Assembly: GCF_035593345.1 (NCBI RefSeq)
Contig: NZ_CP141606.1
Coordinates: 4,464,001 to 4,528,000 of the forward strand
DNA length: 64,000 nucleotides
Source: Lelliottia sp. JS-SCA-14
Lineage (GTDB): Bacteria; Pseudomonadota; Gammaproteobacteria; Enterobacterales; Enterobacteriaceae
Reading direction: 5' to 3'
The translations under genes were made by a program, and so were the position numbers. Below are positions 38,167 to 56,399 of the stretch, one piece after another. Under the pieces are notes generated by a model, which was not told the DNA's origin, made no database searches, and worked only from the letters and a program-made list of their open reading frames with translations. Positions within the stretch are counted from its first letter, which is position 1. Each line of letters begins with the position of its first letter.

Positions 38167-38236
38167 CCCCTCTCCCTTGAGGGAGAGGGTTAGGGTGAGG
38201 GGGAAAAGTGCGCGCTGGTGCCCTCACCCCGGCCCT
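38167..38236. repeat. Tandem CTCTCCC repeats, the second split by the IS
   Basis: A complete unit (CCCCTCTCCCTTGAGGGAGA then GGGTTAGGGTGAGG, 38167-38201) is followed by the left half of a second (GTGCCCTCACCCCGGCCCT, ending 38236). The right half resumes at 39435 (CTCTCCCACGGGGAGAGGG). Confidence 0.85.
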
Positions 38237-38244
38237 TATGTCTT

Positions 38245-38430
38245 GATCTTCTCCGCTTCTGCGGAGAAGATCCCCGACTGATCATCGGGAGGTTACCGGT
38301 GAGCATCACCCGGCCCTGGTGCCACTGAGCCCGTGGGAGAGATTATGCCCCGGTAACCTGTTTCCCTGTCGCCTCAAGACCGAACGGTATCCTGTGCCCT
38401 GAGCACCCACATATAAGGATGGTCCGGCGA
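38245..38430 (+). ncRNA. Predicted IS110 bridge RNA
   Basis: Parts in order: hairpin 38245-38272 (12-bp perfect stem GATCTTCTCCGC / GCGGAGAAGATC, loop TTCT). Target loop closed by GGTTACCGG (38291-38299) / CCGGTAACC (38350-38358), holding CCCGGCCCT (38309-38317), identical to the left target flank, and CCCGTGGGAGAG (38330-38341), complementary to the right flank. Donor loop closed by TCGCC/GGCGA and GACC/GGTC, holding ACGGTATC (38384-38391), identical to the right IS end plus one core base, and ATAAG (38413-38417), complementary to core CT plus the left IS end. The two-loop design follows the bridge/seekRNA model for IS110 elements. Ends and folding are by eye. Confidence 0.8.
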
Positions 38431-38456
38431 TATTATTCATAAGGTTACGGAGTGCC

Positions 38457-39419
38457 ATGATGGAGCTTATTCCTGTCGGCGTTGATATCGCCAAACTCAA
38501 ATTTGATGTCGCCGTCCTGCTGCCTAATCAGAAATACAAAACCAAAAAATTCCCCAACACCTCTGCCGGATGCCGCGAGTTCCTCAGCTGGCTGGCACGT
38601 TTTGGCGACTGCCATGTCTGCATGGAAGCGACGGGCTGCTACAGCACTGAACTTGCCACCCTGCTGGCCGATAACGGCTGCTGTGTCAGCCTCGAAAATC
38701 CCGCCCGCATACACGCGTTTGGCAATACGGAGCTGACCCGCAACAAAACGGACAAAAGTGATGCGGCACTGATAGCCCGCTACTGCGCCCTGTATCAACC
38801 CGCCCCCTGGTATCCTGCGCCGCTGAGCGAGCGTCAGCTGACGGCGCTGGTACGCCACCTGCGTAATCTGGAAGAGATGCGGCAGATGGAGATGAACCGC
38901 CTTGAAGCAGCCGACGAGGTCATTGTTCCCTCACTGCATGAACACGTTGCCATGCTGGATGAACTGATTGACGAAACACGAAAAAAAATCAGCCAGCACA
39001 TCGATGATAACCCTGACCTGAAGCGGGACAGGGAACTGCTGAAGAGCATCCCCGGGATCGGTGAAATGCTGAGCGTGAGCCTGCTGGCGTTCGCGGGTAA
39101 TCTGAGACGGTTCAGTGACAGTAAGGCACTGGTGGCTTACGCCGGGCTGAATCCACGGCGCTGTGAGTCGGGGATGTGGAAAGGAAAGAGCAGGCTGTCA
39201 AAAGTAGGTCACGCAGAGCTGCGCAGTGCCCTGTATATGCCGGCAGTGGTGGCGGGTAGGTGCAATGAGGTGGTGAAGAATCTGATGGACAGGCTGGCAG
39301 CGAGAGGAAAAACAGGGAAGGAACGCGTATGTGCCGGGATGAGAAAACTGCTCCAGCTGGCTTATGGCGTGGTGAAATCCGGACGAGAATTTAATGCTGA
39401 AATACCGCTTGCCGGATAA
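38457..39419 (+). CDS. IS110-family transposase (DEDD, RNA-guided recombinase type)
   Basis: 320 residues. N-terminal RuvC-like DEDD domain with Asp10 (VGVDIAK), Glu57 (CMEATG), Asp99 and Asp102 (TDKSD); a coiled-coil-like middle (about 135-180); C-terminal Transposase_20 domain with SIPGIGEMLS and a GLNPRRCESG motif whose Ser238 corresponds to the family's catalytic serine. All key residues are present and the frame is unbroken, so it looks active. Two ATG codons in a row (38457, 38460); the second has the better distance from GGAG. The stop lies 15 bases from the right IS end. Confidence 0.93.
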   Translation: MMELIPVGVDIAKLKFDVAVLLPNQKYKTKKFPNTSAGCREFLSWLARFGDCHVCMEATGCYSTELATLLADNGCCVSLENPARIHAFGNTELTRNKTDKSDAALIARYCALYQPAPWYPAPLSERQLTALVRHLRNLEEMRQMEMNRLEAADEVIVPSLHEHVAMLDELIDETRKKISQHIDDNPDLKRDRELLKSIPGIGEMLSVSLLAFAGNLRRFSDSKALVAYAGLNPRRCESGMWKGKSRLSKVGHAELRSALYMPAVVAGRCNEVVKNLMDRLAARGKTGKERVCAGMRKLLQLAYGVVKSGREFNAEIPLAG

Positions 39420-39437
39420 CCGACAAGACGGTATCTC
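39409..39437 (+). promoter_or_regulatory. Right-end half of a junction promoter of the IS
   Basis: TTGCCG (39409-39414) then 17 bases then TAT at the IS end. On an excised circle TAT joins CT-T of the left end to give TATCTT, a -35/-10 pair with 17-base spacing. In the integrated state the hexamer reads TATCTC and points out of the element towards the glgP 3' end. Confidence 0.65.
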
Positions 39438-39455
39438 TCCCACGGGGAGAGGGAG
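39435..39455. repeat. Right half of the CTCTCCC repeat interrupted by the IS
   Basis: CTCTCCCACGGGGAGAGGG resumes directly after the IS end and includes the duplicated CT core. Confidence 0.85.
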
Positions 39456-56256: not shown

Positions 56257-56306
56257 GAGCACTTCCCGGGGGCAAAATGGCAAGTAAGCCAGGCTGAAAC
56301 AGGATA

Positions 56307-56399
56307 AAAAAAAGCCAGCTAGAAGCTGGCTAAAGTAATACTGGAAGCAATGTGAGCAATGTCGTGCTTTCAGGTTTCCGTAGAGGTCTTCCTGAACGC
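56307..56399 (-). ncRNA. ryhB: RyhB, iron-responsive small RNA
   Basis: Hfq-dependent sRNA that silences mRNAs of iron-using proteins when iron is scarce. The minus strand reads GCGTTCAGGAAGACCTCTAC and onward through the conserved unpaired core GAAAGCACGACATTGCTCAC and CATTGCTTCCAGTATTACTT, ending in the terminator stem AGCCAGC / GCTGGCT plus eight T. Only the 5' hairpin and the terminator loop differ from the K-12 RNA as I recall it. Location between yhhX and yhhY is the K-12 one, and a Fur box overlaps the promoter. Confidence 0.95.

Follow-up and report, generated by a model that had tools for sequence, protein, structure and literature searches.

That IS110 elements have bridge RNAs was published in 2024 (PMC11208160), and the roles of the catalytic residues have been described for IS621, an E. 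coli element of the IS110 group (PMC11208158). Landing in repeats was reported while the RNA guides were still unknown: ISPpu9, ISPpu10, ISPa11 and ISRm19 are IS110 elements that do so, like the element described here, although in other repeat families (PMC1525189). ISPa11, which belongs to the IS1111 group, lands in the REP sequences of P. aeruginosa (PMC11187229). The repeat of interest here is TMECO, an intrastrand triplex motif that occurs as type A (TTA) and type B (CCG), with triplex formation published for E. coli TMECO sequences in vitro (PMC4666352). In E. coli K-12 five inverted pairs are described, always A with B, and the highest copy number was reported in Enterobacter asburiae (PMC4666352). 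According to its describers, transposase or integrase remnants were never found around TMECO in E. coli (PMC4666352).

We analysed a 64,000-nucleotide stretch of DNA from Lelliottia sp. JS-SCA-14, hereafter the window. It holds a 1198-bp, IS621-like element of the IS110 group at 38237-39434, set between two CT cores. The original prediction had placed an IS110 element at 38237-39446; its identity and its start were correct, whereas its end has to be moved to 39434, since 39446 takes in 12 bases of the target. The element and its surroundings comprise the following features.

38237..39434, plus strand: IS110-group element, 1198 bp (five copies with the same ends)
38168..38201, plus strand: uninterrupted TMECO type A repeat beside the insertion, with TTA in its second loop (sequence; motif as in PMC4666352)
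38221..38236, minus strand: part of the interrupted TMECO type B repeat that lies left of the element, including the left core CT at 38235-38236 (sequence; orthologous empty site L125)
38237..38456, plus strand: left noncoding end, 220 nt
38245..38272, plus strand: perfect hairpin of 12 bp, close to the left terminus and ahead of the predicted bridge RNA
38457..39419, plus strand: IS110 recombinase, 320 aa
39420..39434, plus strand: right noncoding end, 15 nt, final bases GGTAT
39435..39453, minus strand: part of the interrupted TMECO type B repeat that lies right of the element, including the right core CT at 39435-39436

The 320-aa product has the DEDD RuvC-like domain PF01548 and the domain PF02371 with its conserved serine, and it scores 226.7 bits against the NCBIfam model for IS110 RNA-guided transposases (cut-off, 140). 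It is 48% identical to the IS621 protein, and the solved structures found among its relatives are IS621 (8wt6; E 6.8e-79) and ISCro4 (9t56; E 8.9e-78). Residues D10, E57, D99, D102, S238 and G239 align with residues of IS621, a copy of which is part of the alignment, and all six are unchanged in 20 of the 21 aligned rows, the last row having a gap. The four acidic residues and the candidate catalytic Ser238 of the original prediction are thus among those that align with the IS621 catalytic residues. Scoring of 8,000 candidates from public databases, with the best 120 of 2,638 matches considered, revealed relatives nearer than IS621; the closest among the matches listed are 94% (a metagenome), 86% (Cedecea) and 85% (Enterobacter sp. 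SA197) identical. At the DNA level, searches of plasmids and E. coli genomes for near matches yielded no copy of the element, and the viral contigs scanned held no relative, while a scan of genome contigs gave four.

The left noncoding end is predicted to fold into a 5' stem-loop, followed by a target loop and then a donor loop, with guides in both loops.

38265..38440, plus strand: predicted bridge RNA, ends approximate (fold, covariation, model match to IS621)
38273..38289, plus strand: 5' stem-loop of the bridge RNA (fold, covariation)
38290..38359, plus strand: target-binding loop plus closing stem (fold, covariation)
38309..38317, plus strand: left target guide, 9/9 to 38228-38236
38330..38341, plus strand: right target guide, 12/12 complementary to 39435-39446
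38342..38343, plus strand: handshake guide AT in the target loop, fitting the donor AT at 39433-39434 (AGAT here in 21/21 aligned rows)
38367..38432, plus strand: donor-binding loop plus closing stem (fold, covariation)
38384..38392, plus strand: left donor guide, 8/9 to 39428-39436, with the mismatch in the core
38413..38417, plus strand: right donor guide, 5/5 complementary to CTTAT at 38235-38239

The fold energy of 38240-38450 gave a z score of -3.32, and that of the predicted RNA proper (38265-38440) was only mildly unusual (z = -1.64), which counts against it. Rfam at its gathering cut-offs reported no bridge RNA in the window; its only match there was the small RNA RyhB (56306-56371, minus strand, 83 bits). 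An RNA model of our own was built from six elements; its E-values are rough. It matched the left ends in 20/20 other loci given (E 4e-6 to 2.5e-18; L018, a relative from the genome contigs, entered this search), the IS621 copies among them at E 6e-12. By this model, the covariance search proposed with the original prediction places the left end in one RNA family with that of IS621. Over 19 distinct rows, 87% of the cells pair and 38 of the 43 pairs show two-sided changes, in an alignment that was fitted to the structure and so favours it; its covariation score was 0.657, compared with at most 0.117 for slid controls. For an unfitted alignment of six sequences, RNAalifold gave 18 of 43. No sigma-70-like promoter was found in the integrated element, which also counts against the RNA, and the best promoter candidate at the modelled circle junction has only 8 of 12 consensus bases.

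The guide matches described in the original prediction all hold when the sequence is read again: CCCGGCCCT at 38309-38317 equals 38228-38236, and CCCGTGGGAGAG at 38330-38341 is the exact reverse complement of 39435-39446. Both guides do lie inside one stem-closed loop, but the stem has 10 bp (38290-38299 with 38350-38359) rather than the 9 bp first given. Both matches in order never arose in 200,000 first-order Markov resamples of the left end; counted one by one, the left match turned up 1,055 times and the 12-nt match on the right 24 times. The left match is frequent because the region is rich in C; taken alone it is weak evidence, whereas the left and right matches as a pair are strong evidence. 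The AGAT at the end of the right guide agrees with the core and handshake guide of IS621 (PMC11208158). In the donor loop, read by eye, G at 38418 can pair with target base C7, but A at 38419 cannot pair with C6.

The source genome (two contigs, 5.0 Mb) has five copies of the element. Their first 318 bp, which include the whole bridge region, are identical, and the other four copies differ from the window copy at 0, 7, 7 and 12 positions, all inside the gene. These differences are silent, since the five proteins are identical. All five copies share one guide, and all are inserted at an identical point in one intergenic repeat. Each has a long same-strand frame that ends 22 to 94 nt before the insertion, and the sites look intergenic by sequence. 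When the sites are read empty, four of the five have frames of 92 to 350 aa that span the junction. The longest of these (L003) is antisense to a long neighbouring frame; we took them all for non-genes.

DNA matches to the element were found in 6 of 61 genomes of the genus, those in G024, G792 and G796 being short or weak. Genome G812, of the same species, contains at least seven partial copies at contig ends (7/7 candidates scored) and a further copy at glgP, revealed by locus L123. The three left ends found there have both guides unchanged, and the seven junctions all lie in the same repeat. Copies with the same guides at unrelated targets had been named as the observation that would speak against RNA guidance; instead, 5/5 copies in the source genome and 7/7 scored contig-end junctions in G812 share one target. 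At least two left sites of G812 are absent from the five of the source genome, suggesting that the element may have moved recently in the species. In G016, a further species, seven contig-end junctions also lie in this repeat; the contigs there stop short of the guide, and a search for the gene gave nothing. The glg genes beside the element in the window find their best match at the DNA level in an E. asburiae record (87% identical), which would suggest Enterobacter as the genus. glgP is present in 61/61 genomes of the genus, and of 30 glgP loci compared, 28 lack the element and two (source genome and G812) have it. One empty locus, L125, has the same inverted repeat pair with an uninterrupted CCCTCACCCCGGCCCTCTCCC, and the comparison shows a clean, scarless insertion in which CT alone was doubled. 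At the other glgP loci compared, the repeat is often missing or of a different type. A separate observation concerns G792, where an isolated 51-bp palindrome (L115, 1497-1547) is made of two inverted copies of the left terminus of the element and takes in the target CCCT without an IS body; it is a deletion remnant or a miniature derivative.

Judged by its sequence, the target repeat of the five copies is the published intrastrand triplex motif TMECO: the pattern CCCTCNCCC N3-6 GGGNGAGGG N3 GGGNGAGGG (PMC4666352) is present in the five empty sites when the opposite strand is read. Among the papers listed by literature searches, which took in few subscription journals, none linked an intrastrand triplex or triplex motif to an insertion sequence, IS110, bridge RNA or seekRNA. 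The source genome has 127 exact matches to CCCTCACCCNNNCCCTCTCCC, and among the 100 of these that were listed, 43 have TAA and 22 CGG; a slightly looser pattern gives 31 unoccupied CGG sites. The five occupied sites are type B (four CGG, one CGA), though type A (TAA) is commoner. To the right, the flank of the insertions varies past CTCTCCC.

We then asked whether guides and targets change together across the family. Element ends were set by the conserved donor termini and not by the match to the target, a rule made after the sequences had been seen; a scan with free ends was dropped in its favour, as it gave many chance matches. The test comprised 21 rows. Loci whose end was missing or unrecognised (L090, L094, L095, L096, L100 and L108-L112) stayed outside it, as did L018-L020 and two own copies, L001 (the window copy) and L004; L017 was the only one of the four genome-contig relatives used for guides. 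Of the 21 rows, three are further own copies; in 17 of the 21 the guides score higher on their own target than on any that clearly differs from it. In the other four (L084:2830, L098, L101 and L091) the own target has no such advantage, which counts against guidance. Over 15 diverse representatives, the own-target sum was 214, while permutations averaged 162 (sd 8.6; maximum, 196), none of 20,000 reaching the own value. With the columns fixed by the RNA model, 10 elements scored 138, whereas 50,000 permutations averaged 94 and never exceeded 132; with the core left out, the values were 99/130 and a mean of 55 (P = 2e-5). As a positive control, the IS621 copy L106 yielded guides ATCAGGCCT and CTACGCAG, in agreement with the natural target (PMC11208160).

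Two further multi-copy genomes gave mixed results. In G867, 4/4 copies match the left guide at 8/9, yet no more than 3-4 of 8 positions fit the right guide, and in the symbiont genome G939 the left guide is fully fitted by two of five copies and at only 3-5 of 9 positions by the other three, with right flanks fitting at 5/8 in 5/5; the poor fits count against guidance. Rearrangement among many copies could explain these misfits, but this is a guess. The three G939 copies are L158, L164 and L167, and the left flank of L164 resembles an IS110 right end. Elsewhere, an inverted copy of its own left terminus (L098, 1414-1430, minus strand) lies beside a 44%-identical element of another gammaproteobacterial family, which sits in a CCCTCTCC/GAGAGGGG repeat resembling the triplex motif. 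The plasmid IS110 elements of L108-L112 all (5/5) lie directly behind a gene for antirestriction or ardA, and this suggests another fixed target.

The closest comparison is provided by a sister element in G1119, a genome from a different genus of the same family. Its protein is 82.5% identical and its left end about 91% alike, and its closing stem has three two-sided pair changes relative to the window element. Its left guide is CCTAACCCT, with TAA, while its right guide is the same and its donor guides are identical. Its sites have TAA four times and CAA once (5 of 13 candidate places scored). In the reading of left ends that yielded the sister's guide, L156, L161 and L168 gave none by the rule applied there; L161 was scored later. 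Of the left sites in the own species, four have CGG, while CGA, CAA and CTG are each found once. Hence the co-variation of guide segments with flanks that the original prediction called for is seen across diverged elements, and it includes a sister in which the left-guide triplet and the sites have both changed.

These numbers are small. TAA use is 0/7 in the own species and 4/5 in the sister (Fisher, 0.010), at a similar supply of TAA (62/150 and 40/100). The backgrounds come from the repeats listed: 100/127 for the source genome, 50/131 for G812, 100/112 for G016 and 100/265 for G1119. Against the 62/150, 0/7 has P = 0.024. In G016, whose guide lies beyond the contig ends, the left sites have TGG, TAG, CAG and CGG; adding these four gives TAA 0/11 (Fisher, 0.008), and over the same 11 sites the mismatches to CGG sum to 8, compared with 19 expected (P = 0.004). 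When G-U-type pairs are allowed, 6/7 own-species sites fit, compared with 70/150 listed repeats, a weak difference (P = 0.043). For the sister, the probability of at least 4/5 TAA in G1119 is 0.087, and no CGG was found among the 100 of 265 repeats listed there, so host supply partly sets its choice. A natural three-letter guide change appears to split the two repeat types.

Very probably, then, this is a mobile IS110-group element related to IS621, whose target-loop guides would direct it to type B TMECO repeats. What can be read directly in the DNA is its anatomy, the complementarity of guides to target and donor, a conserved predicted RNA fold, the same-site copies and the change of guide with target. 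The earlier proposal of an RNA-guided element that landed where its guide directs gains support from the same-site copies, the variation of guides with flanks and the RNA family shared with IS621. If it works as IS621 does, the excised circle would make the bridge RNA from the left end, and a tetramer of the recombinase would hold it. The target loop would pair with CCCGGCC-CT-CTCCC of a type B TMECO and the donor loop with the element's own joined ends, and the DEDD/Ser238 chemistry would exchange strands at the CT core. The outcome would be a clean insertion into an intergenic repeat.

Alternatively, what attracts insertion might be less the sequence of the repeat than its folded or triplex structure, with the guide only fine-tuning it. 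The own-species junctions all lie in one structured motif and the right flank is variable beyond CTCTCCC, as such an attraction would have it. Types A and B should fold alike, however, and yet TAA is used by the sister and not by the own species; many relatives, compared by sequence, use quite different targets as well. We consider this unlikely. Recognition of the repeat by the recombinase protein, with incidental loop matches, has a parallel in IS1397 and ISKpn1 of the IS3 family, for which protein-driven REP targeting has been suggested (PMC1525189). It is extremely improbable here, since among diverged elements a different target goes with different loop segments, and the sister changes guide and sites together while its right guide and donor guides stay the same. 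Homologous recombination between repeats, instead of transposition, might also have spread the copies, given that the repeats are numerous and that two pairs of copies (L001 with L002, L003 with L004) are near-identical. This too is very unlikely: the junctions keep exactly to the 2-bp core, the homology on either side is short, and the G812 left sites are not all among those of the source genome.

With guided insertion as the preferred reading, the element is a mobile partner for a triplex repeat whose describers, in E. coli, never found transposase remnants nearby (PMC4666352). It may be, and we offer this tentatively, that bridge-RNA elements of one clade have become specialists of intrastrand-triplex repeats and divide these by a change of three letters in one guide (CGG for type B, TAA for type A), and that RNA-guided insertion, excision and inversion between hundreds of sites explain part of the instability ascribed to the triplex alone. 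A role for RNA-guided recombination in the instability of TMECO loci becomes testable. The two sisters form a natural near-minimal pair, with similar left ends and the same landing motif but a differing guide triplet and a differing type of repeat occupied, and they make mismatch tolerance and the natural re-programming of bridge RNAs testable in living genomes.

Among known systems, the IS1111 group with its seekRNAs (ISEc11, ISPa11) shares DEDD recombinases and a guide RNA in a noncoding end (PMC11187229). Its guide RNA lies in the right end, whereas here it is predicted in the left; placement in that group was rejected, as the right end has only 15 nt, compared with 220 nt on the left, and the RNA model matches in the left end. 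ISCro4 (PDB 9t56) is similar as a solved relative by recombinase sequence. The nearest counterpart is IS621 (PDB 8wt6), which has in common with this element the recombinase family, the CT core, the same catalytic residues, a bridge RNA, here predicted, in the left end with the target loop before the donor loop, and landing in a high-copy intergenic repeat, REP in its case. Unlike IS621, the element described here has other guides and is found in TMECO, with a right target guide that matches over 12 bases, an extra 12-bp hairpin at the left terminus and its short right end. What is new here is the target class, named as an IS110 target in none of the papers listed, and the natural near-minimal guide pair.
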